Shown piece by piece: positions 10,498 to 59,567 of a DNA stretch of 64,000 nt. The position numbers and the translations under genes were made by a program. This DNA comes from Candidatus Mediterraneibacter excrementigallinarum. Lineage in GTDB: Bacteria > Bacillota > Clostridia > Lachnospirales > Lachnospiraceae. The notes beneath the pieces were generated by a model. The model was given only the letters and a program-made list of their open reading frames with translations, was not told the DNA's origin and made no database searches. The DNA is taken from contig DWVT01000020.1 in NCBI GenBank assembly GCA_019120075.1, positions 21,463 through 85,462 on the forward strand, read 5' to 3'. Positions within the stretch are counted from its first letter, which is position 1, and each line of letters opens with the position of its first letter.

Positions 10498-10785
10498 AAA
10501 TCTGGCGGGGTGAGAGAGAGTTTCTGCAGGCGGTTCTGCCGTCAGGAGGGATTTTCTGCGCCAGGAGGATAGGGGGTCCGCCGGAGGTGTGTGTCGCCTG
10601 CGGACCCGCTCCCGCTCGGAAAACAACGCAGCGGTACGTAGGCGCGCAAAGGACGCGCGCCAAGTGCCGGCGTTGTTTTACGGTCCTTGGCTGACACACA
10701 CCTCCGGCTGCTGTATTCCCTGCGCTGACAGATCCGAAGACGGCAGGGACGCGCGGGGAAGGTTTTCTCTCACTCCGACAGATTT
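10498..10785 (-). repeat. Dispersed structured element, copy A (core 10576-10708) with extended outer helix
   Basis: The core reads on the minus strand. P1 is a 16-bp perfect helix (10693-10708 with 10580-10595), P2 is 10 bp (10670-10679 with 10620-10629), and P3 is 7 bp (10655-10661 with 10641-10647). The GNRA loop GGGA is at 10613-10610, closed by GC on both sides, and the 3' tail GGCGGAC is at 10582-10576. Outside the core, 10498-10516 can pair with 10767-10785 (17 of 19 plus one G-U), and 10537-10543 with 10739-10745, giving a much larger fold than other copies. A short ORF can be drawn across it but has no protein-like features. The gap from 10384 to 11239 holds only copies A and B and one further hairpin. 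Confidence 0.8.
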
Positions 10786-10942
10786 TTTTAGGGGGCGGTA
10801 GGGAGGACGCGCCCGGGCGGGCGCTGCTCCCTGGGGAATGAGAAAACAGAGAGAGGAACTGCAAAAAGGGAACGGGATTTTCGTGACCGCCGTCCGGGGA
10901 TCGCCAAGGCTCCCCCTGATTTAATAAGTGAGTACATTAAAA

Positions 10943-11045
10943 AAGTGAGTGTGTCAAAAAAAAGAGCGCACCAAAAGCGGGAGCGTTTCTGGCTGCATGA
11001 GTTTTTACCTCATACGGCCGGAATCGTTCCCGCTTCTCCTCACTT
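10943..11045. repeat. Long imperfect hairpin between elements A and B
   Basis: Arms 10975-11001 and 11009-11035 form about 27 positions with 22 or more Watson-Crick pairs and three G-U pairs (plus-strand reading), around the 7-nt loop TTTTTAC. An outer pair, AAGTGAG (10943-10949) with CTCACTT (11039-11045), extends it. The sequence does not carry the P2/P3/GNRA core of the dispersed family. It could be a terminator region or a different structured element. Confidence 0.55.
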
Positions 11046-11083
11046 CATATTTCTGGAAATTGCCGGGGAAGGGATCTGCCCAA

Positions 11084-11216
11084 CCGGGTGTGTATACTGA
11101 TCGAAGGCTGTAGAACAGCGCCGGCACTTAGAACGCGTCCTTTACGCTCTTATGTGTCCGCTGCGCTGTTCTCCAGGCGCAAGCGTGCCTGCGATCAGTA
11201 TATACACCCGGCGGAC
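11084..11216 (+). repeat. Dispersed structured element, copy B
   Basis: P1 is 20 bp (11084-11103 with 11192-11211), 19 Watson-Crick and one G-U. P2 GAACAGCGC/GCGCTGTTC is at 11113-11121 with 11163-11171. The P3 loop is GTCCTTT. The GNRA loop GCAA at 11179-11182 is closed by GC/GC and an outer CAGG/CCTG. The 3' tail is GGCGGAC. It sits 24 bp beyond the stop of the EF-G paralogue, in antisense to it. Confidence 0.85.
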
Positions 11217-11239
11217 GCATCCCTCTCCCCGCCAGTTTC

Positions 11240-13315
11240 TTAATTCTCCTCTGCTCTCGCCGCGATTTCTTTCTCCTGTACATCAGACGGTGCCTGCTCA
11301 TAGCGCGCAAACGTATACTCATAGGTTCCCCGTCCGCCTGTCATGGAGCGCAGTGTAGTACAGTATCCGAACAGACCTGTCATCGGAATGTCCGCCTCGA
11401 TCACCTGTTTTCCTCCCGCGATCGGATTCATGCCCAGCACACGTCCGCGCCGCTTATTAAGATCTCCCATCACATCCCCGGTATAATCGTCCGGAACTGT
11501 GACCTTAAGAGAAGCGATAGGCTCAAGAAGTACCGGAGAAGCCTCCATAAACCCTTTCTTGAATGCCTGGATCGTAGCAGTCTTGAATGCCATCTCAGAA
11601 GAATCCACCGGATGATAGGATCCATCGTACAGGATCGCCTTTACGCCGACTACCGGATATCCGGCGAGAGGCCCCTTCACAACGGATTCCTGAAGTCCTT
11701 TTTCCACAGCCGGGAAATAGTTCTTTGGAACCGCACCGCCGACAACGCACTCTTCAAATACATACGGCGTCTCCAGATTCCCGGACGGCTCGAATTTCAT
11801 CTTGACATGACCATACTGTCCGTGTCCTCCGGTCTGTTTCTTATACTTCATATCCACGTCTGAATTCTTGCGGATAGTCTCACGGAACGCCACCTTCGGT
11901 GTGGACAGTGTGATCTCCACTTTATATCTGGCTGCCAGCTTGCTGGCTGTGATCTCAAGATGCTGATCTCCCATACCATACAGGAGACTCTGTCTGTTCT
12001 CACTGTCATTTACCACTTTCAGCGTGACATCTTCCGCAGTCATCCTAGCGAGTGCCTGAGAAACCTTGTCCTCATCACCTTTCTTGTTGACCGTGTATTT
12101 CATATATGTATATGGCACAGAATAGTCTGTCTTCGCATAAGTCACCTGAGTCGCCTTGGTGGACAGCGTATCGCCGGTACGTGTGTTGGAAAGCTTGGCG
12201 ATGGCACCAATATCACCCGCAAACAGTTCGGAAACCTCTGAAGGCTTGTTTCCGCACATGGTATACAGTTTGCCCGGCTTCTCCTCTGATTCGGTATTTG
12301 TATTGTAGAGTACATCATCCCCTTTGAGCACACCGGAGCATACCTTTATAAAGGAATATTTTCCGATGAACGGATCCACCATCGTCTTAAACACATATGC
12401 GCTCTTTGCCTTTGAGAAGTCATAGTTTGCTTCAAAAATATCATTTGTCGTGCGGTTGATTCCCGCGCAGCTCCTCTTGTCCGGGCTCGGGAAGAATCTC
12501 ACGATATCTGACAGAAGGTTTGCAACACCCTGTGCCTGGATATTAGAACCCATTGCCACCGGAACGATATCTCCGTCCATAACCTCTGTACGCATCGCCG
12601 CGCGGATTTCTTCGATAGAGAATTCCTCGCCGTTAAAGTAACGTTCCATGAACTCCTCGCTTGTCTCCGCAACAGCTTCCATCAGTGAATCTCTCAGGAT
12701 CTCCAGATTCGGTTTACAGTAATCCGGGATCTCGCACTCTTCTCTCTGTCCGATCCCTGTGTATCTTCTTCCCGCGTTCTTAATGACATTGATGTATCCG
12801 ACAAGCTTCTCATTCTCACGGATTGGCTGGAAATGAGGCGCGATCTTCTTGCCGTATCTCGCGGTCAGGTCCTCCACTACCTGGCGGAAACTTGCATCGT
12901 CCACGTCCATCTCTGTGACATATACCATTCTCGGAAGATTGTATTTGTCGCAGAGTTCCCATGCTTTCTCTGTTCCCACCTGTACGCCGGCCTTACCGGA
13001 AACCACGATGACTGCAGCGTCCGCAGCGCTCACCGCTTCCTCCACCTCACCGACGAAATCAAAGTATCCCGGGGTATCCAGTATATTGATCTTTGCTTTC
13101 TCCCACTCAATAGGGATCAGGCTTGTGCTGATTGAAAATCCACGTTTCTGCTCCTCTTTATCAAAATCGCTGACCGTATTAGATTCCGAAATCTTTCCCA
13201 TACGGTTTGTAGCCCCCGATACATACAGCATCGCCTCGACAAGACTCGTCTTGCCGCTTCCGCCGTGTCCGAGCAGGACCACGTTCCTAATTTCGTCTGT
13301 TCTGTAAACCTTCAT
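11240..13315 (-). CDS. Elongation factor G paralogue (EF-G2-like GTPase)
   Basis: Translational GTPase of 691 residues counted from the ATG at 13315 (MKVYRTDEIRNVVLLG), which has an AAGGAGG ribosome site; an in-frame ATG at 13372 lacks one. The G1 loop is GHGGSGKTS (residues 16-24) instead of the AHIDAGKT of housekeeping EF-G. G3 is DTPGYFDF. G4 is TEMD, departing from NKMD. Domain IV/V signatures such as GGHGQYGHV and EPIASLKVTVPDDYTGDVMGDL are present. These departures place it in the divergent EF-G2-like subfamily rather than essential fusA. EF-G2 proteins elsewhere may act in stress or ribosome recycling, but the role here is unknown. The gene is a single transcription unit. Confidence 0.9.
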   Translation of the reverse strand: MKVYRTDEIRNVVLLGHGGSGKTSLVEAMLYVSGATNRMGKISESNTVSDFDKEEQKRGFSISTSLIPIEWEKAKINILDTPGYFDFVGEVEEAVSAADAAVIVVSGKAGVQVGTEKAWELCDKYNLPRMVYVTEMDVDDASFRQVVEDLTARYGKKIAPHFQPIRENEKLVGYINVIKNAGRRYTGIGQREECEIPDYCKPNLEILRDSLMEAVAETSEEFMERYFNGEEFSIEEIRAAMRTEVMDGDIVPVAMGSNIQAQGVANLLSDIVRFFPSPDKRSCAGINRTTNDIFEANYDFSKAKSAYVFKTMVDPFIGKYSFIKVCSGVLKGDDVLYNTNTESEEKPGKLYTMCGNKPSEVSELFAGDIGAIAKLSNTRTGDTLSTKATQVTYAKTDYSVPYTYMKYTVNKKGDEDKVSQALARMTAEDVTLKVVNDSENRQSLLYGMGDQHLEITASKLAARYKVEITLSTPKVAFRETIRKNSDVDMKYKKQTGGHGQYGHVKMKFEPSGNLETPYVFEECVVGGAVPKNYFPAVEKGLQESVVKGPLAGYPVVGVKAILYDGSYHPVDSSEMAFKTATIQAFKKGFMEASPVLLEPIASLKVTVPDDYTGDVMGDLNKRRGRVLGMNPIAGGKQVIEADIPMTGLFGYCTTLRSMTGGRGTYEYTFARYEQAPSDVQEKEIAARAEEN

Positions 13316-13446
13316 GCTGCTGCCTCCTTGTATAGTTATTGTGCACACTCTCTTTCTTACACAGTCATGCACGCTATGGATATATTGTACTAAAACTTTG
13401 CTGTAAATACAACTATTTTATTCATTTTTCACATATTCAGAAAGAG

Positions 13447-13475
13447 TTTACTTTTATAGAGCAACGTGTTAAAAT
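13447..13475 (+). promoter_or_regulatory. tyrA-aroA promoter
   Basis: -35 TTTACT (13447-13452), 17-bp spacer, -10 TAAAAT (13470-13475). It lies about 105 bp upstream of tyrA and leaves room for a transcribed leader. Confidence 0.55.
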
Positions 13476-13482
13476 GTTTCTA

Positions 13483-13547
13483 TGTGTGCAGTTCCATGCT
13501 TCTGACAGTTCCGGCGCTCTTTTGCGCAGGGACAGGGCATGTACACA
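13483..13547 (+). promoter_or_regulatory. Structured leader upstream of tyrA
   Basis: Nested pairings can form: TGTG/CACA at the ends, CATGC/GCATG, GTTCC/GGGAC, and an inner CGC/GCG around TCTTTT. Together these make an imperfect hairpin covering most of the leader. No T-box specifier region or known riboswitch core was recognised. It may modulate expression of the aromatic operon, or may be incidental. Confidence 0.35.
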
Positions 13548-13580
13548 GATCATATAAAATAATGAAAGGATCATACATCT

Positions 13581-14678
13581 ATGGCTTCAGCAAAAATAGG
13601 CTTTATCGGACTCGGGCTCATCGGCGGTTCCATCGCGAAAGCGATCCGCAGATATTACCCGGATTATCAGATCATCGCCTTTGACAAAAACAGAGAGACT
13701 CTTGCCCTTGCCGTGCAGGAGGGAACGATCCATATCTCCTGTTCCTCCATTGACGATAATTTCCGGGGATGCGCTTACATTTTTCTGTGCGCTCCGGTTT
13801 CCTATAACACTGCGTACCTGGCGCAGCTCAAAGAACTTGTAGATCCGGACTGCCTCCTCACTGATGTGGGGAGTGTCAAGACTTCCATCCACGAGGAGGT
13901 CACTGCCCTGGGAATGGAGAGAAACTTTATCGGCGGTCATCCCATGGCGGGATCGGAAAAGAGCGGGTTTGCCAATTCCAAGGCTCACCTGATCGAGAAC
14001 GCTTATTATATCCTCACTCCCACTTCAAAAGTAGCGGAAGAAAAGGTTGCTGCCTACCGGGATTTTGTGGCATCTTTGAAGGCTCTTCCGGTCATCCTTG
14101 ACTATCGGGAGCACGACCGGATCACCGGGACCATCAGCCATCTCCCCCACATCATCGCTTCCACGCTTGTGAACTTTGTACACGATACAGATTCCAGGGA
14201 TGAGCTGATGAAAGCGCTGGCCGCCGGGGGATTCAAGGACATCACGAGGATCGCTTCTTCCTCTCCTGTCATGTGGCAGCAGATCTGTCTGAAGAACGGG
14301 AAAAATATCTCTTCCATCCTTGGACAATACATCGAGGCACTGAACCGGGCGAAACAACTTGTCGACTCCGCGGACGAGGAGGAACTCTACAGCATGTTCG
14401 AATCCTCAAAGGATTACCGGGATTCCATGCCAAACAGTTCCGCAGGTCCCATCAAAAAACAGTTTGCCCTGTACTGCGACATCATTGACGAGGCGGGAGG
14501 AATCGCTACTATCGCCACCATACTTGCAAGCAATAATATCAATATCAAGAATATCGGCATTGTACACAACAGAGAATTTGAGGAAGGAGTTCTCCGCATC
14601 GAGTTCTACGATGAAGAATCATCTTCCAAAGCAACAGCACTGCTCCAGAAATATCATTATATCGTATATGAAGTTTAA
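13581..14678 (+). CDS. tyrA: Prephenate dehydrogenase with ACT domain
   Basis: Oxidative decarboxylation of prephenate to 4-hydroxyphenylpyruvate, the tyrosine branch of aromatic synthesis. The protein has 365 residues. The Rossmann motif GFIGLGLIGGSIAKAI is at residues 6-21. The substrate loop GGHPMAGSEKSG is near 113-124, and HDRITGTISHLPHI carries the catalytic-region histidine near 180. The last 70 residues (GIATIATILASNNINIKNIGI) form an ACT domain, expected to bind tyrosine for feedback control. The start follows GAAAGGAT. It leads a two-gene unit with aroA, whose start lies 48 bp downstream. Confidence 0.95.
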   Translation: MASAKIGFIGLGLIGGSIAKAIRRYYPDYQIIAFDKNRETLALAVQEGTIHISCSSIDDNFRGCAYIFLCAPVSYNTAYLAQLKELVDPDCLLTDVGSVKTSIHEEVTALGMERNFIGGHPMAGSEKSGFANSKAHLIENAYYILTPTSKVAEEKVAAYRDFVASLKALPVILDYREHDRITGTISHLPHIIASTLVNFVHDTDSRDELMKALAAGGFKDITRIASSSPVMWQQICLKNGKNISSILGQYIEALNRAKQLVDSADEEELYSMFESSKDYRDSMPNSSAGPIKKQFALYCDIIDEAGGIATIATILASNNINIKNIGIVHNREFEEGVLRIEFYDEESSSKATALLQKYHYIVYEV

Positions 14679-14726
14679 CGAGTTGTGCAGGATCATTTAA
14701 ATCAGAGAGAAAGAAGGATTATTACA

Positions 14727-16019: not shown

Positions 16020-16071
16020 AAATTTTAAAAACGTATTCGTGCAGAGAGTCTGCCGGAGTGAGGACGGACCA

Positions 16072-16206
16072 GCCGGAGGGGATGTGTTGCCAGAAAGCTG
16101 TAGAACGGCGCCGGCACTTGGAGCGCGTTCTGTGCGCTCCTATGTACCGCTGCGCCGTTCTCCAAGCGAGAGCGGGCTTGATGGCAATACATCCCCTCCG
16201 GCGGAC
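16072..16206 (+). repeat. Dispersed structured element, copy C
   Basis: P1 is 21 bp (16072-16092 with 16182-16202) with one G-U. P2 GAACGGCGC/GCGCCGTTC is at 16103-16111 with 16152-16160. P3 GGAGCGC/GCGCTCC encloses the loop GTTCTGT. The GNRA loop GAGA at 16168-16171 is closed by GC/GC. The tail is GGCGGAC. An additional 10-bp outer helix, 16054-16063 with 16211-16220, passes over the stop codon of folBK. It sits in the convergent gap between aroA and folBK and may terminate both. Confidence 0.87.
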
Positions 16207-16212
16207 GCCCCC

Positions 16213-17034
16213 TCACTCCGCCAGCTCTGCCAGCATCTCTTTTACCGTCTTCCCGTACACCGGATGTCTCTTATACGGCGCTATCTCCGCAAGCGGCTCC
16301 AGCACAAACTTCCTCTTATGCATTTCCACATGGGGAATACACAGATCATCCTCCTCACAGACCAGATCATCGTAAAAGATAATATCCAGATCCAGCGTCC
16401 TTGGACCCCAGTGTATGATCCTTTCACGTCCCGCCTCCTGTTCGATGCGGTGAAGTTCCTCCAGAAGTTCCCGCGGGTACAAAAGGGTTTCCATTTTCAG
16501 GCATCCGTTCAGAAAATCTGCCTGGTCAGTCACTCCGTAAGGAGGCGTCTCGATAAAGCCCGAAACCTTTTCAATCCTGCAGTCACGCAGGGATCTCAGT
16601 GATTCCACGGCATTGTTCAGATACGCCTCCCGATCTCTCATATTGGAACCGAGAGCGATATATGCCGTATGCCATCCCCGCTCAACTGATACGCTCACTG
16701 TTTTAAGCGGAAGCCGGACCGGCGCCCAGGGCTTCTTGATCGTCAGTCTCACTTTTCGGAGCAGCGGAATGGACAGGAGCATCTCTTCCGCCAGGCTCTC
16801 CGCTGCACGTTCCAGTAAATGGAAGGTATGTTCCCTTAAATATTTCTCTATAAAAGCACTTACCTCTCCGTAGTGGATGGACGCGGTAAGCTCATCTGTC
16901 TTTCCGGCTCTCCGCGTATCCGTATAAAGAACTGCTGTCACAAGAAATTTCTGTCCCAGCACGTTTTCTTCGGGGAATACCCCGTGATTGGCAAATACTT
17001 CCAGCTCTTCGATCCTGATCTCATCCAGTCTCAT
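16213..17034 (-). CDS. folBK: Dihydroneopterin aldolase / HPPK fusion
   Basis: A bifunctional folate enzyme of 273 residues counted from the ATG at 17034 (MRLDEIRIEELEVFANHGVF). Residues 1-118 are FolB: EVFANHGVFPEEN carries the substrate-binding region and VRLTIKKPWAPV the end of the fold. Residues 120-273 are FolK: AYIALGSNMRDREAYL, then FLNGCLKMET and the signature RTLDLDIIFYDD with HPHM-like IPHVEMHKRKFVLEPL. It cleaves dihydroneopterin and then pyrophosphorylates the product. It is the last gene of the fol operon, 38 bp after folP. Its stop codon lies in an outer helix of repeat element C. Confidence 0.96.
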   Translation of the reverse strand: MRLDEIRIEELEVFANHGVFPEENVLGQKFLVTAVLYTDTRRAGKTDELTASIHYGEVSAFIEKYLREHTFHLLERAAESLAEEMLLSIPLLRKVRLTIKKPWAPVRLPLKTVSVSVERGWHTAYIALGSNMRDREAYLNNAVESLRSLRDCRIEKVSGFIETPPYGVTDQADFLNGCLKMETLLYPRELLEELHRIEQEAGRERIIHWGPRTLDLDIIFYDDLVCEEDDLCIPHVEMHKRKFVLEPLAEIAPYKRHPVYGKTVKEMLAELAE

Positions 17035-25079: not shown

Positions 25080-25200
25080 AGAAAATTCTAAAAACTCTGG
25101 GAACTGACTAAAAACAATCTGCAAGGCAACACAACTCGCTTACGCTCAAACAATATTGCCTTGCAGATTAACGTCAGTTTCCAGAGTTTTAACATTTTCT
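25080..25200 (-). repeat. Reduced member of the structured-element family, copy H
   Basis: A long hairpin has arms 25091-25108 with 25173-25190 (17 of 18 plus a wobble) and 25116-25129 with 25156-25169 (14 bp perfect), and an A/T-rich extension to 25080 and 25200. Its apical part, read on the minus strand, is GAGC-GTAA-GCGAG, a GNRA loop (25143-25140) closed by GC/GC exactly as in the full copies. P2, P3 and the conserved internal loop are missing. It lies 111 bp past the ABC permease stop, and 245 bp past the SpoIIE-type gene in the sense orientation. Confidence 0.6.
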
Positions 25201-25291: not shown

Positions 25292-25426
25292 GCCGGGAAG
25301 GTATGCTGCCTGAGGGCCGTTAAAACAATGCCGGCACTTAGGCCGCGTCCTTTGCGGCCTTACGTGTCTGCTGCATTGTTTTCCGAGCGGGAGCGTGTCC
25401 GAGGGCAGCATACCTCCCCGGCGGAC
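25292..25426 (+). repeat. Dispersed structured element, copy D
   Basis: P1 is 19 positions (25292-25310 with 25404-25422), 18 paired. P2 AAAACAATGC/GCATTGTTTT is at 25322-25331 with 25373-25382. P3 AGGCCGC/GCGGCCT encloses the loop GTCCTTT. The GNRA loop GGGA at 25389-25392 is closed by GC/GC. The tail is GGCGGAC. An outer helix, 25264-25274 with 25439-25449 (10 of 11), passes over the stop codon of the convergent phosphatase gene. The 476-bp gap 24969-25444 holds only copies H and D. Confidence 0.87.
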
Positions 25427-25444: not shown

Positions 25445-26620
25445 TCAGTAATACCTCACCGTCACTCTCTTCTCCATCTCCTCCGCAGTCCTTACCAACT
25501 GCTCCACCAGATTCTGCCTCATGCTCAGATCAAAGTTGAGTTCTGTCTCCTTGTGCGCGTCATTGACTGCCGTGCCCACGAAAAGGTTCAGTTCCGTGCA
25601 CTCTTCGATCAGAAGTTTTGCAAGTCGTGATGCACCGTTATCCGCATCCAGTTCATCGAAAAATTCCGCGTCAAATTCGCCCCGGACATATTTTTTCAGA
25701 AGTTTCAGGCATTTTCCAAGGGTCAGCACACCCTCGGTGACCAGATCGATCCCGTCGATCACCGCCGTGGGCGGCACATCCGGTCCGGCAGTGCTGATCT
25801 CTGTCACGATCTTTTTTCCCAGAACCCTTGCCGCGATATTGGCGCTGGTTCCCCCGGAGATAACTTTTTTCCCCTCAGCATGCATGAAATCATATATGAT
25901 TCTCTCATCATCCGCTTTCTTTGCGGGAGGTCCGGTGAAGATGCTGACCACCCGGCGCTCGATCACTCTCGCCACCGCCACGGTGGTATCATCCTCGGGC
26001 TTCTCCTCATACAGCTCATCGCACGCCTGGCAGAGCATCACCGCAAGACGGGATGCCGACAAGGTTTTCTTCGTACATTTCAGTGTATACTCGGACATCG
26101 CCTCCCAGGTCCAGCCCTGAAGATTCAGGATGGAACCTGCTCCTGCATAGATCACCCCGTCGCTCATCAGAGTAAAACAGTCGTTCTTTTTCACCTGGAA
26201 CCTGGATTCATGGACTTTTTTCCCCTCGATTTCCCGTACCTCATATGGATATTTCACAATCTTTCCGTCACGGATAAACACACAGGAGGGATTGTCGAAC
26301 TCCGCCAGATACGCCTCGCCGCTATGAAAAATCTGAAGGATACTGAAGGCGGCGTAGGCGACCTTGCGGACCTTGCAGATCGGAAGTGTCTTTGCCACGG
26401 TCTCCACGCAGGACTCGATGGATGCGCCTTCCCGGAGCATGGTTCCCAGGATCTTGGACGTCAGAGTGGCAAGGATATTCGCCTTCACCCCGCTCCCCAT
26501 ACCGTCCGCAAGGATCACAATATCCGAATCTTCGGTCCTGAGCACCTCCACCTTATCGCCGCAGAGTTCCTCTCCCTGTTTGTTCAGGCTTTTCCAGGAC
26601 ACATCGATACTGAAACTCAT
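25445..26620 (-). CDS. SpoIIE-type (PP2C) protein phosphatase linked to the hydrogenase sensor
   Basis: The protein has 391 residues. The PP2C-like metal site is visible as ILADGMGSG (residues 36-44), LMSDGVIYAG and PEDDTTVAVA. The phosphatase fold covers about residues 1-215. A further 170-residue C-terminal domain beginning VVSIFTGPPAKKADDERII is not part of SpoIIE and I do not recognise it; KVISGGTSANIAARVLG is its most conserved-looking segment. It follows the PAS-containing H-cluster protein gene by 12 bp in the same operon. Such phosphatases next to group C [FeFe] hydrogenases are thought to relay an H2 signal to a serine-phosphorylated target. Element D's outer helix covers its stop codon. 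Confidence 0.87.
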   Translation of the reverse strand: MSFSIDVSWKSLNKQGEELCGDKVEVLRTEDSDIVILADGMGSGVKANILATLTSKILGTMLREGASIESCVETVAKTLPICKVRKVAYAAFSILQIFHSGEAYLAEFDNPSCVFIRDGKIVKYPYEVREIEGKKVHESRFQVKKNDCFTLMSDGVIYAGAGSILNLQGWTWEAMSEYTLKCTKKTLSASRLAVMLCQACDELYEEKPEDDTTVAVARVIERRVVSIFTGPPAKKADDERIIYDFMHAEGKKVISGGTSANIAARVLGKKIVTEISTAGPDVPPTAVIDGIDLVTEGVLTLGKCLKLLKKYVRGEFDAEFFDELDADNGASRLAKLLIEECTELNLFVGTAVNDAHKETELNFDLSMRQNLVEQLVRTAEEMEKRVTVRYY

Positions 26621-30667: not shown

Positions 30668-30800
30668 GCCGGGGAGGTGTGTTGCCTGAAGACTGTAGAA
30701 CGGCGCCGGTACTTAGAGCGCGTCTTTTGCGCTCTTATGTACCGCTGCGCCGTTCTCCAAGCGGAAGCGGGTCTGAAGGCAATACACCTCCCCGGCGTAC
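30668..30800 (+). repeat. Dispersed structured element, copy E
   Basis: P1 is 20 bp (30668-30687 with 30777-30796) with one G-U. P2 GAACGGCGC/GCGCCGTTC is at 30698-30706 with 30747-30755. The internal GGTAC/GTACC pairs fully here, whereas other copies have GGCAC with GTACC or GTGTC. P3 AGAGCGC/GCGCTCT encloses the loop GTCTTTT. The GNRA loop GGAA is at 30763-30766. It sits 30 bp past the sigma-partner stop, in sense, and 29 bp from the convergent hydA stop. A weak outer helix (30637-30645 with 30822-30831) again reaches the hydA stop codon. Confidence 0.88.
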
Positions 30801-30829: not shown

Positions 30830-32572
30830 TCAGTTGATCGTCCTCTTCACATACGTGGTATGCAGGATCTGATGCGCCCGCTCGCTGCCCGGCTCTCCCA
30901 GATACTCTTCATATACCTTTCTGATCGCCGGGTTCTCATGGGACTTCCGGATCGTCTTTGCCGCATCGTTATCGTACAGCGCTTTCGCCCGGATTGCCTT
31001 CACATCTTCAAAATTCCTCACATCCGCATGCACCCGGGGCTGGCCTCCGCCGTTGACGCAGCCGCCCGGACAGCACATGATCTCGATAAAGTGATAATCC
31101 GCCTCGCCGGCGCGGACTTTATCCATGATGATCTTCGCGTTGCCAAGGCCTGATGCTACCGCAACTTTCATATCCATCCCCGCCACATTATAAGTTGCTT
31201 CCTTGATCCCGTCCGTGCCTCTCACTTCCGTAAATTCCGGTTTCTCCAGTTCTTTTCCCGTCAGTTTTTCCACTGCGGTCCGCAGAGCCGCCTCCATAAC
31301 TCCTCCGGTTGCTCCAAAGATCACACCGGCTCCCGTGGACTCTCCCAGCGGATCGTCAAATCCCTCGTCGGGAAGACTGCGGAAATTGATCCCCACCTTG
31401 CGGATCAGCCTTGCCAGTTCTCTTGTAGTGATAGAGATATCCACATCCGGCACTCCTGCCGCATACTGATCATCCCGCTGGAGTTCGAACTTCTTCGCTG
31501 TGCAGGGCATGACGCTGACGCAGACAATATCCTCCGGCGGGATCCCCATCTTCTCCGCATAGTAGGTCTTGGTGATCGCCCCGAACATCTGCTGGGGAGA
31601 TTTACAGCTTGAGAGGTGGGCAAGCTGATCCGGGTAATAATGTTCACAGTATTTGATCCATCCCGGAGAGCAGGACGTCATCATGGGCAGGACTCCGCCA
31701 TTCTGTACCCGGTCAAGAAATTCATGTGCCTCTTCCATAATGGTCAGGTCCGCGCTGAAATCCGTATCAAACACCTTGTCGAATCCGATCCTCCGGAGCG
31801 CCGCGGCCATCTTTCCTTCCACATCGGTGCCCATGGGATATCCGAACTCTTCTCCCAGCGCCGCACGGACCGCGGGCGCCGTCTGTACCACCACATGTTT
31901 CGACTCATCCGCGATCGCCGCAAGGACGTCGTCCGTATTATCTTTTTCATAGAGCGCTCCCGTAGGACAGGCGGCAATACACTGACCGCAGCCCACACAA
32001 CTGGTATCTCCCAGTCCCATTTCAAATGCCGATCCGATGAATGTGGCAAACCCACGGTTATTCGGTCCGATCACGCCCACGGACTGTACTTTTTCGCACA
32101 CTGCGGAACACCTGCGGCAGAGGATGCATTTATTATTGTCACGGATCATATGTACCGCGCTGGTGTCCGGCTCATAGTGATTTCTCTCCCCGGCGAAATG
32201 ATCCTCGTCCTCCACACCCAGTTCCTGACACAGTTCCTGGAGCTCGCAGTGTCCGCTCCTGACACAGGACAGGCATTTCTTGTCATGAGTTGACAGGAGA
32301 AGCTCAAGAGTCCTTTTCCTTGCATCCAGGAGCCGCTTTGTATTCGTCCTTACTTCCATGCCTTCCGCCACCGGATAGACACAGGCGGCCACAAGCCCCT
32401 TCGCCCCTTTTACCTCTACCACGCACATACGGCACGCGCCGATCTCATTGATCTCTTTCAGCCAGCACAGCGTAGGAATATGGATCCCCGCTCCGTGGGC
32501 CGCTTCCAGGATCGTGGAGCCGGCAGGCGCGGTGACGTTCAGACCGTTGATCTTTAAATTCACATTTTCCAT
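30830..32572 (-). CDS. hydA: NADH-linked [FeFe] hydrogenase catalytic subunit (group A, HydA/HndD type)
   Basis: Interconverts H2 and protons. The protein has 580 residues with domains in order: plant-type 2Fe-2S (GACRMCVVEV), His-ligated 4Fe-4S (KKCLSCVRSGHCELQELC), two 4Fe-4S (CILCRRCSAVC, CVGCGQCIAACPTGA), the H-cluster domain, and the C-terminal small-subunit region. All three active-site motifs are canonical: TSCSPGWIKYCE, MPCTAKKFE and CCPGGCVNGGGQP. This shows it is catalytic, unlike the two sensor-type proteins nearby. It is the last gene of the operon hydC-kinase-ferredoxin-hydB-hydA, 15 bp after hydB. It probably bifurcates electrons between NADH and ferredoxin. Confidence 0.96.
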   Translation of the reverse strand: MENVNLKINGLNVTAPAGSTILEAAHGAGIHIPTLCWLKEINEIGACRMCVVEVKGAKGLVAACVYPVAEGMEVRTNTKRLLDARKRTLELLLSTHDKKCLSCVRSGHCELQELCQELGVEDEDHFAGERNHYEPDTSAVHMIRDNNKCILCRRCSAVCEKVQSVGVIGPNNRGFATFIGSAFEMGLGDTSCVGCGQCIAACPTGALYEKDNTDDVLAAIADESKHVVVQTAPAVRAALGEEFGYPMGTDVEGKMAAALRRIGFDKVFDTDFSADLTIMEEAHEFLDRVQNGGVLPMMTSCSPGWIKYCEHYYPDQLAHLSSCKSPQQMFGAITKTYYAEKMGIPPEDIVCVSVMPCTAKKFELQRDDQYAAGVPDVDISITTRELARLIRKVGINFRSLPDEGFDDPLGESTGAGVIFGATGGVMEAALRTAVEKLTGKELEKPEFTEVRGTDGIKEATYNVAGMDMKVAVASGLGNAKIIMDKVRAGEADYHFIEIMCCPGGCVNGGGQPRVHADVRNFEDVKAIRAKALYDNDAAKTIRKSHENPAIRKVYEEYLGEPGSERAHQILHTTYVKRTIN

Positions 32573-52358: not shown

Positions 52359-52510
52359 TTTTATTTTTCTACATTTTTTCCCTCTCTTTCATTCTCTCGT
52401 TATACAAATCTTCCAACTGATATGTTATCATACTCTTTGTACACTGAAATGCATGTGTGTTCCGGTGTATCTGATAATATTTGAAAGGAGAATTTTACAA
52501 AAGAGAATCT

Positions 52511-53809
52511 ATGCAATATACTTTTACACAACTGTTCTGGCTGCTCCTCGTTTATTCCTTCATCGGATGGATCATCGAGGCGATGGTCGGATCGATCAAA
52601 AACAGACATTTTACCAACCGCGGATTTTCCACCGGCCCCTTCTGTCTCGTCTACGGAGTCGCCGTTGTCATCATGGAACTGACCCTGTCCGAACTGATGG
52701 ACAATCCGGTCTTTCTTCTCATTGGGTGCGGACTTCAGGCAACTATCATCGAATGGATCACCGGAAAAGTCCTGGAACGGCTGAACCATCACAAGTGGTG
52801 GGATTATTCAAAAAAGAAATGGAATTTTGACGGATATATCTGTCTTCAGTACTCCCTGCTTTGGGCTGTCCTGGGCGCTGTTGCCCTCCGATACGGGAAC
52901 ACGTTCTTTTTCTTCCTGTACAGCCTGATCCCGACGCCTCTTCGGGATATTCTCGTATGGGGACTGGTGATCTATCTTGCGGCTGACACGCTGGTCTCCT
53001 TTACCGCTGTACTTCATCTGCAGCACGGCAGGGGGCCTTCCGGCCGTCATCACAGAAAATTTACCGTTCTGCTCTTCCGCGCTTCCCGAACCTTCATCGG
53101 TTATGTGGAACGCCGTATGGAAAAGGCCTATCCGATCATTCAGGAACGTGCCGAAGAAATTCTGAAAGAAGGGCATTTCGCGGAGGGCTGCGGTTTCTAC
53201 AAGCTGTTCTGGCTCTTCCTGATCGGCTCCCTTCTCGGCGATATCACGGAGACCATCTTCTGCCGGATCACTGCCGGCGTGTGGATGAGCAGGAGCAGCC
53301 TGGTATGGGGGCCGTTCAGTATCGTATGGGGCTTTGCCATCGTCCTTGCAACGATCCTCCTCTATAAAGACAGGGACAAACCGGACCGGCATATTTTCCT
53401 CATCGGCACACTCTTGGGAGGAGCCTATGAATATATGTGCAGTGTTCTGGGCGAGCTTGTCTTCGGTCAGGTCTTCTGGGATTACAGCGAGATTCCCTTT
53501 AATCTGGGCGGAAGGGTCAACCTTCTGTACTGTTTCTTCTGGGGAATCGCGGCCGTTGTCTGGATCAAGGGGCTGTATCCTCATTTTTCAAAATGGATCG
53601 AGAAGATCCCGAAACTGACCGGATACATAGCCTCCTGGATCCTGATCGTGTTCATGACCGCGGATCTGATGGTCTCCGCGGCGGCGCTGATCCGTTATGA
53701 CCAGAGAGCGGGCGGCCCTCCTGCCAAAAGCGGCTGGGAACAGGTCATAGATACGAATTTTGATGATGCGAGGATGAAAGAGATCTATCCTAATGCGAAG
53801 TTCCGGTAA
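52511..53809 (+). CDS. Duplicated PF06541 membrane protein (putative ABC-type permease)
   Basis: The protein is 432 residues from the ATG at 52511 (MQYTFTQLFWLLLVYSFIGW); a TTG start at 52481 would add ten residues. Residues 5-60 (LFWLLLVYSFIGWIIEAM, then TGPFCLVYGVAVVIM) and 232-290 (LFWLFLIGSLLGDITETI, then WGPFSIVWGFAIVL) are two copies of the same half, separated by a polar segment. Each copy has about four helices. PF06541 members are annotated as ABC-transporter type IV or CmpB-like membrane proteins of unknown role; no ATPase gene is adjacent in this orientation. Element G begins 16 bp after the stop. Confidence 0.85.
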   Translation: MQYTFTQLFWLLLVYSFIGWIIEAMVGSIKNRHFTNRGFSTGPFCLVYGVAVVIMELTLSELMDNPVFLLIGCGLQATIIEWITGKVLERLNHHKWWDYSKKKWNFDGYICLQYSLLWAVLGAVALRYGNTFFFFLYSLIPTPLRDILVWGLVIYLAADTLVSFTAVLHLQHGRGPSGRHHRKFTVLLFRASRTFIGYVERRMEKAYPIIQERAEEILKEGHFAEGCGFYKLFWLFLIGSLLGDITETIFCRITAGVWMSRSSLVWGPFSIVWGFAIVLATILLYKDRDKPDRHIFLIGTLLGGAYEYMCSVLGELVFGQVFWDYSEIPFNLGGRVNLLYCFFWGIAAVVWIKGLYPHFSKWIEKIPKLTGYIASWILIVFMTADLMVSAAALIRYDQRAGGPPAKSGWEQVIDTNFDDARMKEIYPNAKFR

Positions 53810-53825
53810 ATAATATAAGACATAC

Positions 53826-53954
53826 GCAGGAAGAGGGGCTCCCTCCCGGACTCATTTTCATTCGGAGTTCAGCGCAGCGGTACATAAGACCGCAAAAGAC
53901 GCGCTCAAAGTGCCGGCGCTGCCCTACGGTCCGGGCGGGAGCCCCTCTTCCTGC
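53826..53954 (-). repeat. Dispersed structured element, copy G
   Basis: P1 is the longest, 26 positions (53929-53954 with 53826-53851) with one mismatch. P2 keeps CAGCGC/GCGCTG (53916-53921 with 53870-53875). P3 is weakened. The loop is GTCTTTT. The apical GNRA is GAAA (53859-53856), closed by AT/AT instead of GC/GC. The GGCGGAC tail is missing. It lies 81 bp past the symporter stop in the sense orientation, and convergent with the PF06541 gene. Confidence 0.8.
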
Positions 53955-55232: not shown

Positions 55233-55361
55233 GTAATATCCTCTCTTCTGCTTCTATTTCATTTTCCTTCGGACCACGTCTTTTTTTCAGTATGTCTCAA
55301 TCCTCCGGGAAAATACCTCCCCAGTGTAACCGCTGCCTTCCATCCTGACAAGAAGTATATT

Positions 55362-56252
55362 TCAGGATAACCTTCCTCTTTTTTCCTCCCTGTAATCCAG
55401 ATACTCCAGAAAACGCTTCACGGCAAGGGACGCGCTCTTCTTTTCTTTCAATGCCACGCCTATGCTCCGGTAGGCCGGGATCTCAAGCTCCTTGACGACG
55501 ATCCGGTAGGGGATCCGCTTCAGGATCAGTTCCGGGAGGATACTGATGCCCAGCCCGCTCTCCACCATCGCCATGATGGCATAGTCGTCCCAGGTGGTAA
55601 AATGTACCTTCGGCGTCAGGCCGCACCGCTCGAATATCTCCGACACCTCCGCCCTGGCTCCTTTTTCCAGGAGCATGAAGGGATCTTCCACAAGAGCATT
55701 CACCGGAAATCTTTCACAGTCCGCCAGCCGGTGTCCCTCGGGAAGGACCACCATCAGGCGGTCCTGCTCCAGAAAAACTGTCTCCAGTTCCGCATGAGTG
55801 GGAAGCCTTAAAAAGCCGCAGTCCACTCTCCCCTCCAGGATCCACTCCTCGATCTCACTGTAGTCCCCCAGGAGGAGTTCATAGTCAATATCAGGATAGT
55901 CCTTCTGAAATTCTTTTATGATATTGGGCAGCCACTGTGACGCCACGCTGGAAAAGGCTGCGATCCGGATCAGACCGGACCGCAGTCCGTTCAGTTCGTC
56001 CACCTGCATCTGAAGCTTCTCGTATTCCCTGCAGACATTCTCCGCATAGGGAAGCAGCTTCAGCCCGTCACTTGTCAGGCTGACCCCGCCCCGTCCTCTC
56101 TCCAGAAGCGTCACCTTCCATTCTTTCTCCAGATCATGGATCATACGGCTGATCCCGGACTGGGAGTAATTCAATATTTCCGCCGCCTTTGTAAAACTCC
56201 CATACTCCACAGTCTTTACGAACGCCATATATTTCTGCAGATTCATATCCAT
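55362..56252 (-). CDS. LysR family transcriptional regulator
   Basis: The protein is 296 residues from the ATG at 56252, with AGGAGG upstream. The N-terminal helix-turn-helix is MNLQKYMAFVKTVEYGSFTK, then AAEILNYSQSGISRMIHDLE. The effector domain (residues 90-290) begins GLIRIAAFSSVASQWLPNII. It is transcribed away from proB and ends 130 bp before the symporter gene, so it could control either. The effector ligand is unknown. Confidence 0.95.
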   Translation of the reverse strand: MDMNLQKYMAFVKTVEYGSFTKAAEILNYSQSGISRMIHDLEKEWKVTLLERGRGGVSLTSDGLKLLPYAENVCREYEKLQMQVDELNGLRSGLIRIAAFSSVASQWLPNIIKEFQKDYPDIDYELLLGDYSEIEEWILEGRVDCGFLRLPTHAELETVFLEQDRLMVVLPEGHRLADCERFPVNALVEDPFMLLEKGARAEVSEIFERCGLTPKVHFTTWDDYAIMAMVESGLGISILPELILKRIPYRIVVKELEIPAYRSIGVALKEKKSASLAVKRFLEYLDYREEKRGRLS

Positions 56253-56301
56253 ATATAGAGCCTCCTTCCATCTGGTTTTCTCATGATATTTATGATAAAT
56301 A

Positions 56302-56330
56302 TTCACTTTTGTAATTTATAAGTCTATGAT
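56302..56330 (+). promoter_or_regulatory. Candidate proB promoter
   Basis: -35 TTCACT (56302-56307), 17-bp spacer, -10 TATGAT (56325-56330), 55 bp before proB. The same region contains the divergent lysR start. No LysR T-N11-A box was checked exhaustively. Confidence 0.4.
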
Positions 56331-56384
56331 ACGATATACAGGTGAGCGAATCAAGCTGAAATAACTGTACATAAGGAGAAGATC

Positions 56385-57182
56385 ATGGGACTTTATAATA
56401 ACAGAATCGTAGTAAAGGTAGGAACGTCCACTCTGACCAACGACTCAGGGAAAAGCGACCTGCGCGCCACAGACCGCCTTGTCTGCACACTGGCGGATAT
56501 CCACAACATGGGCTATGAGGTGATCCTCGTTTCCTCAGGCGCCATCGCCGTGGGACGCAATAAACTGAACATGCATGCCAGACCGGACAGCATGAGAATG
56601 AAACAGGCCGCAGCTGCTGTCGGGCAGTGCAGTCTGATGTACCTGTATGATAAATTTTTCGGGGATTATGACAAGACTGTGGCTCAGATCCTTCTGAACG
56701 CAGAGGATATCGAGCAGGAAGAAAAGAAGGAAAATCTGACCAATACCTTCAACGCGCTGTTGGAAATGGGCGTCATCCCCATCGTAAACGAAAACGATTC
56801 CGTCAGCTACACAGAGATTGAATCGGAGGACCGGCTGTTCGGTGACAACGATATGCTCTCCTCCGTCGTCGCCGTCCTCTGCCGCGCAAAGAAGCTGGTG
56901 ATCCTGTCCGACATCGACGGATTCTACGACAGCGATCCCCGTCTGCATCCCAACGCAAAACTGATCGATCAGATCGATGAGATCGACGAAAGCGTCTATT
57001 CTCTGGCAGGCGGAGCGGGAAGCCGCAGAGGCACCGGCGGGATGCGGACAAAACTCCAGGCAGCCCAGCTCGCCACCTCAAACGGCATCGACACCATTGT
57101 CACCAACGGAAAACGCCCGGAAGCCCTCTACGATATTGTAAAGGGCGGGAAAGCCGGAACACTGTTCACCGGGAAAATGTAG
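56385..57182 (+). CDS. proB: Glutamate 5-kinase (short form)
   Basis: Phosphorylates glutamate for proline synthesis. The protein has 265 residues, without the C-terminal PUA domain of the E. coli enzyme (about 367); such short forms are common in Clostridia. Motifs are VVKVGTSTLTNDSGK at the N-terminus, LVSSGAIAVGRNKL, NENDSVSYTEIE, LFGDNDMLSSVVAV and GTGGMRTKLQAAQ. proA is not adjacent. The start follows AAGGAGAAG. Confidence 0.95.
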   Translation: MGLYNNRIVVKVGTSTLTNDSGKSDLRATDRLVCTLADIHNMGYEVILVSSGAIAVGRNKLNMHARPDSMRMKQAAAAVGQCSLMYLYDKFFGDYDKTVAQILLNAEDIEQEEKKENLTNTFNALLEMGVIPIVNENDSVSYTEIESEDRLFGDNDMLSSVVAVLCRAKKLVILSDIDGFYDSDPRLHPNAKLIDQIDEIDESVYSLAGGAGSRRGTGGMRTKLQAAQLATSNGIDTIVTNGKRPEALYDIVKGGKAGTLFTGKM

Positions 57183-57239
57183 AATCTGCAGAAAATGTTC
57201 CCAGAATCACCGGAAGTGCCCAAAGGCATATTCCGGGAT

Positions 57240-57335
57240 TGTAAGCGGTCGCCAGGGTCTCGGGCACGCCCGGGCTTTGGCTCGTCGCCGTTACAAAAAG
57301 AGACCATGCATACGGACTTTGCACGGTCTCTTTTT
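57240..57335. terminator. Bidirectional terminator between proB and ogt, with a GC-rich palindrome
   Basis: AAAAAGAGACC (57295-57305) and GGTCTCTTTTT (57325-57335) form an 11-bp perfect stem with T- and A-runs built in, ending both convergent genes. Just before it, 57240-57294 contains an imperfect palindrome (GTAAGCGG...CCGTTAC with an inner CGGGC/GCCCG) that could be another hairpin. It does not carry the dispersed-element core. Confidence 0.85.
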
Positions 57336-57848
57336 CTATTTTCCACCCTGCTCCAGGGCGAGAAGGCTCTTCTTTTTCTCCACTCCTCCCGCATATCCCG
57401 TCAGACTTCCGTCCGTCCCAAGGATCCGGTGACAGGGGACAATAATGGAAATCGGATTATGTCCCACCGCTCCTCCCACTGCCTGGGCGGACATAGAAGG
57501 AATCCCCCTCTGCGCAGCGACCCGCTCCGCGATTTCTTTATATGTAGTCGTCTTCCCATACGGGATTTTTAATAAAATCTCCCACACCTCTATCCGGAAA
57601 GGGCTTCCCTGGAGATGGAGCCTGGGAGTAAAGTCCGGCTCCTTTCCATCAAAATAGATATCCAGCCACTTCTTTGTCTCTTCAAACACCGGGAGAATCT
57701 CTCCGCTTTCTGTCTGTTCTTCTTCATCCGCAGCCAGCCCCGCACCGAAATATTTCTGCCCGTCAAACCACAGTCCGCTAAGCGACTCCCCGTCAGACGC
57801 CATTGTGATCCCGCCCAGAGGAGAATCGTAATGATATGTGTACTTCAT
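57336..57848 (-). CDS. ogt: Methylated-DNA-[protein]-cysteine S-methyltransferase
   Basis: Repairs O6-alkylguanine by suicidal transfer. The protein has 170 residues. The N-terminal half is the ribonuclease-H-like domain. The DNA-binding half has GSPFRIEVWEILLKIPYGKT, the arginine-finger region IPSMSAQAVGGAVGHNP, and the acceptor in IIVPCHRILG. The last residues end at the terminator stem. It is convergent with proB and unrelated to it. Confidence 0.94.
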   Translation of the reverse strand: MKYTYHYDSPLGGITMASDGESLSGLWFDGQKYFGAGLAADEEEQTESGEILPVFEETKKWLDIYFDGKEPDFTPRLHLQGSPFRIEVWEILLKIPYGKTTTYKEIAERVAAQRGIPSMSAQAVGGAVGHNPISIIVPCHRILGTDGSLTGYAGGVEKKKSLLALEQGGK

Positions 57849-57888
57849 TCTCTTTCTCTCCCTTCTCTCATCGTGAGCCGCAGTGCGG

Positions 57889-58629
57889 TCACATCTGATC
57901 CGGATCCTGCTGTCGCTCTGACGACCTCAGGAATTCCTCCACGATCCGGTTAAACTCCTCCGGATTCTCCTTTGCAATAAAATGACTGCCCTTCATCACC
58001 CGGATCTGCGCGTTTGGAAGGCTGGCATAGATCAGCCTTGTGTGTTCATCCTTTATCATATCCCTGTTTCCCGCGATCACCAGTTTCGGGATCCGCAGGA
58101 AATCCGGATCCCTGTTTTCAGACAGCTCTTCCGGGGTCAGGTTCGGGTCGTTGACCATCAGTCCCAGCATCTCCGCATTTTTACGCGCTGCTTCACTTTT
58201 CCCTGCGAACAGGCACGCAGCATGATACCCTATTATGATGGGAATCTGAATGGACGGTTTTACACCTCTTCCATACAGATTTGCCCCGTTCAAAATCAGT
58301 CTGTCCACCCGCCCCGGATATTTCAGGGCAAATACCAGGGCAATGTTCCCGCCGTCCGAAAATCCGAGGATATCCGCTTTTTCGATTTCCTGCTCATCCA
58401 TAAAATCATGCAGATCCTCCGCGAACTGACGGATCGTAAAAGGTTTGTCCCCTCTCGGGGACTTCCCGTGTCCTCTCGTATCCAGAGCGATCACGCAGTG
58501 CTCTTTTAAAAAATGATTTATCTGGTGAACAAAATATCCGCTGTCCTCCCCGTTTCCGTGGAGAAGGATGAGCGGGGAACCAGTGCCTTTTTCAATGTAA
58601 TGAAGTTTGATGTCCGTATCTTTGCTCAT
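57889..58629 (-). CDS. Alpha/beta hydrolase
   Basis: The protein is 246 residues from the ATG at 58629 (MSKDTDIKLHYIEKGTGSPL), with GGGAGAAAG before it; it does not overlap the RelE gene. The oxyanion segment is LILLHGNGED, the nucleophile elbow is LGFSDGGNIAL (Ser in the sequence FSDGG), and a catalytic histidine is in MKGSHFIAKENPE. It is probably an esterase or lipase of the single-domain type; the substrate is unknown. Confidence 0.9.
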   Translation of the reverse strand: MSKDTDIKLHYIEKGTGSPLILLHGNGEDSGYFVHQINHFLKEHCVIALDTRGHGKSPRGDKPFTIRQFAEDLHDFMDEQEIEKADILGFSDGGNIALVFALKYPGRVDRLILNGANLYGRGVKPSIQIPIIIGYHAACLFAGKSEAARKNAEMLGLMVNDPNLTPEELSENRDPDFLRIPKLVIAGNRDMIKDEHTRLIYASLPNAQIRVMKGSHFIAKENPEEFNRIVEEFLRSSERQQDPDQM

Positions 58630-58646
58630 ATGATCTTTCTCCCTGG

Positions 58647-58961
58647 TCAATTCATCCTGTTTTCGTAATCCTGCAATTCATGAAATATGTTATCTATAAT
58701 AACCAGATTACCGGAAATGCGATACAACATAAAATATCTATGCGCAGTAAAATTAATCCTTTTGTATCCCTGTTCTTTCAACTTGGGATTCTCACAATAT
58801 TTTAAACTTCCTGCAACATTTTGAAGAATCTTTTTTGTAATTTCAAAATCATCAAGCAAGTTTCTTGCTGCTTGATCATTTTTCTTTTCAAAGAGCAAGT
58901 ATCCCACATACTCTTCCAGATCATGTTCTGCATCTGGGGTAACAACCACTTTATAATCCAT
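58647..58961 (-). CDS. RelE/ParE-type toxin
   Basis: The protein has 104 residues: MDYKVVVTPDAEHDLEEYVG, NLLDDFEITKKILQNVAGSL, and the C-terminal HRYFMLYRISGNLVIIDNIF with the RelE-like strands. It is basic and lacks membrane segments. The antitoxin gene overlaps its start by 11 bp. The RelE/ParE split cannot be decided by eye, so both ribosome-dependent mRNA cleavage and gyrase inhibition are possible. Confidence 0.88.
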   Translation of the reverse strand: MDYKVVVTPDAEHDLEEYVGYLLFEKKNDQAARNLLDDFEITKKILQNVAGSLKYCENPKLKEQGYKRINFTAHRYFMLYRISGNLVIIDNIFHELQDYENRMN

Positions 58962-59250
58962 ATTTTTCCCTCAGGTCCTTTACTGCATCATCTGCATCCC
59001 TGTACCTTCCTTGAGCTGCATGCATTCTTGATTTCTCAAGCTTTTCCAGCATAGCTTTCTCCGACATTGCCATATAAGGATTATTTTCAGGTGTTTTTTT
59101 TCTTATTTCAAATGGAAATCCATTATGCGCGACTGCCTGCGTTAAAAAAATCCGAATCGCTGTGGTTGTGTCCGTTCCCAAATCTTTAAATAAATTGTCA
59201 GATTTTTTCTTAAGCTCATCGTCCACTCTTACTTGTATCGTACTTGACAT
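58951..59250 (-). CDS. RelB/DinJ-type antitoxin
   Basis: The protein is 99 residues from the ATG at 59250 (MSSTIQVRVDDELKKKSDNL), with GGAGGGAG upstream; a longer frame starts at 59295 without a site. The ribbon-helix-helix is STIQVRVDDELKKK, followed by DTTTAIRIFLTQAVAHNGFP, the RelB/DinJ pattern. The C-terminal part is the toxin-binding tail. It probably represses the promoter at 59295-59323. Confidence 0.9.
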   Translation of the reverse strand: MSSTIQVRVDDELKKKSDNLFKDLGTDTTTAIRIFLTQAVAHNGFPFEIRKKTPENNPYMAMSEKAMLEKLEKSRMHAAQGRYRDADDAVKDLREKYGL

Positions 59251-59294
59251 ATGGCTCCCTCCAGTTCCTAACAAACGTTGTATTTTACACTGCA

Positions 59295-59365
59295 ATTATA
59301 CTGCATTTTCATTTCTATTGCAATACAAATGCACAGCAACTAGTAGGGAACGGCAACTAGTAGGG
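59295..59365 (-). promoter_or_regulatory. Toxin-antitoxin promoter and repeats
   Basis: -35 TTGCAA (59323-59318), 17-bp spacer, -10 TATAAT (59300-59295) on the minus strand. The -35 lies inside the 10-bp palindrome TATTGCAATA (59315-59324). Upstream, GCAACTAGTAGGG occurs twice (59336-59348 and 59353-59365) with a 17-bp period. The palindrome and direct repeats are plausible antitoxin binding sites. Confidence 0.6.
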
Positions 59366-59406
59366 TAATCTGAGGGAGGAATCCGCACCTGCCCACATCT
59401 TCCCGT

Positions 59407-59567
59407 CTGAGAAAAAAGAAGCCAGGGCAGAGGTTTCCATCAAAGGCCGTAGAGCTGCGCCAGCACTTGGGCTGCGTCTTTTGCAGCCCTATGTACTGTT
59501 GCGCTGCGGCCCGAGCGCAAGCGCGCCTGCGATGGAAATCTCTGTCCTGGCGGACTATTTTTCTCAG
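59407..59567 (+). repeat. Dispersed structured element, copy F (core 59421-59555)
   Basis: P1 is 21 bp (59421-59441 with 59531-59551) with two G-U pairs. P2 keeps GCGC and GC/GC pairs around an internal mismatch (59452-59460 with 59501-59510). P3 GGGCTGC/GCAGCCC encloses the loop GTCTTTT. The GNRA loop GCAA at 59517-59520 is closed by GC/GC. The tail is GGCGGAC. An outer helix CTGAGAAAAA/TTTTTCTCAG (59407-59416 with 59558-59567) overlaps the carB stop codon. The 313-bp gap 59251-59563 otherwise holds only the toxin-antitoxin promoter. Confidence 0.88.

Follow-up and report, generated by a model that had tools for sequence, protein, structure and literature searches.

Seven copies of a Y-shaped element in the window

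We analyzed a 64,000-nucleotide stretch of contig DWVT01000020.1 of Candidatus Mediterraneibacter excrementigallinarum (the window; the genome is called G000 below), in which an RNA-like element recurs seven times between genes. These copies probably belong to a family of small non-autonomous mobile elements that extends across the Lachnospiraceae and has a folded core that is recognized or retained. The original prediction, made from the sequence alone, had located seven full copies, and their coordinates, strands and tetraloops, all of which obey the GNRA rule, proved to be as it had given them (Table 1).

The seven copies were aligned, the structure was drawn by hand and its pairs were counted against shuffled and slid controls. 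All seven share a Y-shaped fold composed of helices P1 and P1b, a three-way junction, an arm (P2/P3) and a hairpin of two pairs capped by the GNRA loop. P1 has 11 pairs in the drawn structure and is longer in computed folds. A small internal loop, which in some copies is readable as tandem G.A, separates P1 from P1b, a covarying helix of 4 bp that leads to the junction and that the original prediction had not included. The arm runs in the order P2-P2b-P3 and ends in the loop GUCYUUU, which had been predicted correctly in kind, although one copy has GUUCUGU. In the hand-drawn structure 93.5% of the 278 cells (seven copies, 40 pairs) are paired versus 26-49% in the slid controls, and two-sided changes were found in 27 of the 40 pairs, a value as high being given by none of 500 shuffles. 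These counts together with the agreement of the predicted folds bear out the proposal that the copies fold alike, and the GCCGGCACUU and UAYGURYC segments are near-constant among the seven, as had been described. In copy 6 (at 53826) both pairs of the GNRA hairpin have switched to A-T, a compensatory change, and the loop is still GNRA. That P1 differs completely in sequence between copies was an overstatement, since only its middle is variable whereas the outer end is mostly GCCGG/CCGGC.

A covariance model (R1) built from the seven copies scored them at 107.5-128.4 bits within the window, the next match (28.8 bits) being the reverse strand of one copy. An eighth, reduced copy had been proposed at 25080-25200 (-), but R1 gives this segment only 19.4 bits (E value 0.025), a score resembling that of an unrelated hairpin at 5714 (19.1 bits). 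The segment shares just the GAGCGTAAGCGAG tip with the family and looks like another type of hairpin.

Table 1 Features of the window, with R1 scores of the seven copies and the genes beside them
Feature	Position	Strand	GNRA loop	R1 score (bits)	Remarks
Copy 1	10576..10708	-	GGGA	115.6	Spans P1 to P1; left half of the divergent pair formed with copy 2
Copy 2	11084..11216	+	GCAA	111.1	3' end lies 24 nt away from the EF-G stop codon (gene 11240-13372, -)
Copy 3	16072..16206	+	GAGA	122.7	Lies between aroA (+) and a gene that converges on it and ends at 16213; by eye, the extended unit is about 16049-16228
Copy 4	25292..25426	+	GGGA	109.7	Adjoins the 3' end of a SpoIIE-type domain gene (25445-26620, -)
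Copy 5	30668..30800	+	GGAA	128.4	Adjoins the 3' end of the [FeFe] hydrogenase gene (30830-32572, -)
Copy 6	53826..53954	-	GAAA	107.5	Adjoins the 3' end of the open reading frame 52481-53809 (+)
Copy 7	59421..59555	+	GCAA	108.0	Adjoins the 3' end of carB (59564-62764, -)
Spacer between copies 1 and 2 (the divergent pair)	10711..11081	.			Holds further hairpins
Long hairpin of another type (non-member)	25080..25200	-			Tip TTTGAGCGTAAGCGAGTTG

The non-member hairpin represents a second family, having variable long stems and the tip TTTGAGCNNNNGCGAGTTG, that was also seen in L012, L062, L118 and L286 (L numbers denote loci of the genomes compared). The exact TTTGAGCNNNNGCGAGTTG-tip pattern was found in 4 of 398 loci, and looser forms were noted by eye in L181, L188 and L194.

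The element family is apparently undescribed so far. No Rfam 15 family reached its gathering score anywhere in the window, and the original prediction likewise could place the element in no named family. Relaxed scans gave weak and implausible matches alone over 10550-11240 and nothing credible on a core in 20 loci from other genera. Clostridiales-1 RNA (RF01699), presented in the accessible portion of PMC2864571 as a structured candidate RNA from Clostridiales and in that respect similar, had a sub-threshold match in L306 (40.9 bits, cut-off 48), but the match is about 220 nt from the core and leaves it uncovered. The T-box leader (RF00230) was rejected as an identity because the T-boxes near leuS are separate from the core. 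Literature searches gave no recognized description of the element, although it may be listed without a name among the thousands of candidate RNAs from the gut reported in PMC8040213, a source available in part.

Distribution and conservation of the core

A covariance model search of relatives, the check proposed with the original prediction, found the copies to be widely dispersed. The window genome contains 31 copies of at least 59.1 bits, the next matches scoring 31.3 and 24.8 (150 of 421 candidates were scored). Among the 60 relatives searched, copies recur in 24 of the 36 congeners, with 2-47 copies in each, and the 24 genomes that represent other families of the order yielded no core. When named genomes were scanned with a pattern, at least 116 stretches matched. 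Among those listed, most were titled Mediterraneibacter, including M. glycyrrhizinilyticus An427 and M. catenae SW178, and others came from Eisenbergiella, Acetatifactor and Lachnoclostridium metagenome-assembled genomes. In the Lachnospiraceae, matches at an E value of 1e-6 were obtained in 121 of 397 genomes (107 of the 334 genera sampled), with at most nine candidates scored per genome, such that copy numbers are lower bounds. No match was obtained in viral contigs using one exact pattern, in plasmids using one window copy as query or in phages using one unit of genome G247 (see below) as query.

The fold is conserved outside the genus. In an alignment from other genera (63 matches at 48 loci, 51 distinct rows) fitted to R1, 95.6% of cells are paired, two-sided changes occur in 39 of 40 pairs and the covariation score is 0.847 versus 0.222 for shuffled and about 0.1 for slid controls. 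Helices P1b, P2b and P3 covary across genera. For the tetraloop, 123 matches were tallied, drawn from 100 of the 116 pattern-scan loci. Its first position is G in 119 of 120 and its fourth is A in 119 of 119, whereas the second is A, G or C (83, 20 and 17 of 120) and the third A or G (75 and 44 of 119). In L305 and L319 a longer hairpin takes the place of the P3 loop with the rest of the core being kept.

Orthologous sites

At orthologous sites the core is present in some species and absent from others. The close relative G079 has a core at all seven window sites, that at hydA being a hybrid, whereas G003 has no core match genome-wide and no core was found by motif in five 20-kb stretches of G003 and G062 (three syntenic ones from G003). 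At the carB site of G003 a remnant persists in which P1 is retained and the arm is deleted, and at its aroA site there is a short gap with a plain hairpin. The 3' ends of hydA in G071 and G079 (L176 and L177) carry palindromes composed of halves from two oppositely oriented copies, as if recombination had collapsed a divergent pair.

Comparison of P1 between orthologues was restricted to clean registers because register slips inflate automated two-sided counts. At carB (G007/G065) and at the 53.9-kb site (G000/G007) 13 pairs are the same and 2 have two-sided changes, whereas at fusA (G079/G065) 11 are the same, 3 are changed on one side and 1 on both sides. At hydA (G065/G007) 11 are the same and 4 are broken, and at trkA and the 25.3-kb site (both G000/G079) 14 are the same and 1 is broken.

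A bias in which strand folds

Mismatches were scored over the 14 P1 pairs next to the core, with registration by Watson-Crick pairs only, isolated mismatches being counted and orthologues being kept. In these inner pairs G.U outnumbered A.C by 59 to 16 (85 copies) and by 16 to 0 in other genera (48 copies), an excess of about fivefold. This excess of G.U argues that one strand folds, as either RNA or single-stranded DNA, and suggests that the pairing constraint acts on the strand that leads outward to the core's 3' end, although a strand-biased mutation process could be an alternative source of the bias. The original prediction of selection on an RNA fold holds in that the fold is conserved, but the P1 asymmetry does not decide between RNA and single-stranded DNA.

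The pairing might instead be structure without function, that is, long DNA palindromes with arms kept complementary by templated correction or recombination and no selection on a folded strand. Such a process would fit the few one-sided P1 changes between orthologues in clean registers, the half-and-half hydA elements (which would be products of recombination inside a palindrome) and the weak strand bias of the wide flanks given below. However, the unpaired segments are conserved, the GNRA rule is held, P1b, P2b and P3 covary across genera and inner P1 shows G.U well above A.C, which symmetric correction would not give. We consider this explanation highly improbable.

Units with inverted ends in two genera

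Unit boundaries were best resolved in two other genera, represented by genomes G247 and G191. Three copies in G247 share 81 nt before the core plus 181-206 nt from the core start and then diverge, and the copies of this genome have common edges and inverted ends. In both genomes the units are about 260 bp between inverted ends around GTGTCAAAAGCC with the core in the middle. The end-type pattern had 32 matches in G247 and 22 in G191, whereas the reversed control had none. A stricter end pattern was found in G247 and G191 alone among the 397 genomes versus the core in 121. The terminal repeats are lineage-specific and the core is shared. In Mediterraneibacter the ends were placed by eye near ATCTGCCGG / CCGCCAGAT.

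The flanks of 25 end pairs (one of which spans two units) were compared for an 8-bp target duplication at the best of 81 offsets tried. A mean of 5.96 of the 8 positions were identical versus 3.65 with the right flanks shuffled, and at least 7 of 8 were identical in 12 of the 25 pairs versus 1.07 expected. Thirty ends among the 54 pattern matches were also examined for T-runs. Outside the 3'-side end, 15 of the 30 had a T-run of at least 5 within 25 nt (background 5.2%), whereas A-runs at the same place numbered 0 of 30 (background 4.4%). A fold of -9 kcal/mol or lower precedes 14 of these 15 T-runs versus 53 of 277 other T-runs at the same loci, the median fold energies being -17.4 and -5.6 kcal/mol, respectively. 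Together the T-runs and the stable folds indicate that in these two genera units often land directly after an intrinsic terminator, the core then being antisense to the gene terminated.

Larger arrangements were seen in G191. Head-to-tail arrays of three and four units with spacings of 187 and 164 bp are present in L339 and L340, respectively, and in L349, L373 and L375 the units are about 410-420 bp or the core is interrupted by another hairpin-bearing insert.

Placement beside the 3' ends of genes

Orientation relative to genes is biased. By simple calling of open reading frames, with orthologues kept, the gene at the 3' side of the core is antisense to it in 106 of 138 Mediterraneibacter placements, and in 89 of these 106 the stop codon is within about 55 nt. 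Neighboring cores less than 500 bp apart in Mediterraneibacter loci are all divergent, their 5' ends facing (24 distinct spacers, some orthologous), and in other genera 7 of 8 close pairs outside arrays are divergent. A hairpin of the form GGGAG-CA-GCGC...GCGC-GTC-CTCCC recurs in several pair spacers and 5' flanks, for example in L004, L011 and L078.

The P1 of copy 7, read in the sense of carB, is a hairpin stem followed by a T-tract. This arrangement suggested that P1 might be a captured terminator stem in every copy, but that idea was dropped because T- and A-runs are not enriched around the copies. Identity with an intrinsic terminator, a stem followed by a T-tract, was likewise rejected, as neither T- nor A-runs were enriched around 153 copies, the carB copy being an exception. 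A gene-class leader or riboswitch was rejected because cores adjoin unrelated genes, despite recurrence upstream of ileS and near leuS. One class I aminoacyl-tRNA synthetase cluster, which Pfam assigns to the ileS type in L173 (the only locus so analyzed), has copies beside it in 13 loci, some being the same site twice; these include L173 4640-5100, L015, L033, L043, L070, L090, L125, L155 and L158. In L173 the 3' half of the core is partly duplicated beside the synthetase gene.

These placements raise the possibility of a host-serving cis RNA at gene 3' ends, in which transcripts coming into a gene from its 3' side would fold the core and antisense or read-through RNA would thereby be blocked, terminated or processed, mobility being secondary. 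The antisense placement mostly just behind stop codons is what such an RNA would give, the wobble bias falls on the antisense strand, and P1 pairing is kept in some orthologues with clean two-sided changes (carB in G007/G065 and the 53.9-kb site in G000/G007). The carB copy, in which P1 and the T-tract resemble the terminator of the gene in the other sense, looks like the best case for host service by old copies. However, a core was found by motif no more than about 200 nt from the end of the gene in 7 of 30 hydA, 7 of 30 carB and 6 of 30 fusA loci (some cut by contig ends), a promoter-like site was not found in the one pair spacer tested and T-runs on the strand of the core are not enriched after it. 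Moreover, near-identical copies with target duplications are present in other genera. On this evidence host service as the primary role seems unlikely.

Candidate movers and related repeats

Y1 transposase domains were detected in 43 of 61 genomes. This bears on a REPIN-like explanation, according to which a RAYT/Y1 transposase would move the elements, as inverted doublets of structured palindromes, in the form of single-stranded DNA. REPINs are extragenic inverted doublets of palindromic modules with a spacer, as far as the accessible text of PMC3116915 describes them, and the divergent pairs with their spacers and the strand-biased fold are similar. Within the genus, long Y1 frames (at least 240 amino acids) are also commoner in carriers (19 of 25) than in non-carriers (4 of 12), with a Fisher p of 0.027 uncorrected for phylogeny, which leaves room for a Y1 mover. 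The core of about 110-135 nt with its three-way junction, however, differs from the REPIN modules, no core was found by motif at 20 loci with RAYT-type Y1 genes, and the RAYT-type gene of the window genome is flanked by a different repeat. Six carriers lack a long Y1 frame (some assemblies are incomplete), and the G247 and G191 units have inverted ends and an 8-bp duplication. To our knowledge, inverted ends with an 8-bp duplication are not the pattern left by Y1 enzymes. We judge a REPIN-like origin to be very unlikely. In L265 (1-1000) a RAYT-type gene lies between AGGTGCCGTGTACTTT repeats, perhaps its own REP-like sequence.

Two other transposase groups, IS1595 (PF12762) and IS256/Mutator (PF00872), were discarded as movers because they were absent from the 5 genomes tested. 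No autonomous parent with the same ends was recognized in the examined loci, which extended 1.5 kb on each side at most sites.

Other small repeats share some of these properties. Bacterial miniature inverted-repeat transposable elements are, in the portion of PMC10969869 available, short, intergenic, multicopy and without protein, and those properties are shared by the element, as are the inverted ends and short target duplications in G247 and G191. The element differs in that one conserved Y-shaped core occurs with differing terminal repeats, the core being found in 107 of 334 genera, and no parent insertion sequence was found. SPRITE of Streptococcus pneumoniae is given in the accessible text of PMC3049150 as a simple terminator-like hairpin, one of the small repeats that are enriched at gene 3' ends and related to terminators, whereas the present element has a junction in its fold and shows no enrichment of T-tracts. 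According to the part of PMC8919778 available, group IIC introns insert just after intrinsic terminators, and the T-runs at 15 of 30 ends in G247 and G191 are a likeness. In contrast to such introns, the units are about 260 bp, with the 3' end of the core facing the gene to which it is antisense. The Rfam scans gave no group IIC intron match over the core (intron domains were not searched separately).

Discussion

Our preferred interpretation is that of a mobile element family. Each element would contain either a single core or a divergent inverted pair of cores whose 3' ends point outward, and elements would settle mainly beside gene 3' ends with the 3' end of the core towards the gene to which the core is antisense. 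In the two best-resolved genera this would often be just behind intrinsic terminators, which may serve as a safe niche. The folded strand, whether RNA or the outward-running DNA strand, would be the module recognized by the mobilizing machinery, possibly a transposase acting in trans, or otherwise kept. Some old copies such as that at carB may now be part of the terminator of the gene.

Several observations weigh against this interpretation. No enzyme has been tied to the element, and the excess of long Y1 frames in carriers, from a comparison that takes no account of phylogeny, gives a Y1 mover some likelihood. The inverted ends and duplications come from two genera, neither of which is Mediterraneibacter, and T- and A-runs around 153 Mediterraneibacter copies show no enrichment, so that the evidence for a terminator link is that of G247 and G191. 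Even in G247 and G191, the duplication was read at the most favorable offset, the T-run ends were a subset of the pattern matches and in 8 of the 30 ends a crude motif recovered no intact core. When stems were strictly required to be ungapped, in a test that allows no bulges and takes the last T-run, one was found before 3 of 15 T-runs versus 28 of 277 elsewhere, and the folding-energy test was run after this one. The orientation bias is weaker in other genera (the 3'-side gene antisense in 32 of 52), and orthologous copies were kept in the counts. In wider flanks the G.U bias is weak, 89 versus 69 A.C and 29 versus 15 in one count and 59 versus 41 and 19 versus 7 in a second, these wide-flank counts taking in conserved loop mismatches. 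The fitting to R1 tilts the other-genus alignment towards the structure, and the P1 pairing that orthologues retain might reflect a function at each site.

A more specific proposal is that the folded core, whether a structured RNA or the outward-running DNA strand, is itself the mobility module, which would recruit an enzyme, steer insertion to terminators in one orientation and have been joined to different terminal repeats across the Lachnospiraceae. We put this forward as a tentative and somewhat doubtful extension of the mobile-element interpretation; if true, the element would represent a novel type of design among non-autonomous mobile elements. About one-third of the sampled Lachnospiraceae genomes (121 of 397) bear a conserved fold within elements that alter the 3' ends of ordinary genes, and the element brings structured nucleic acid together with small mobile repeats and the targeting of terminators. 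As near-identical copies with intact ends are present in some genera, both the mobility and the RNA questions are directly testable.

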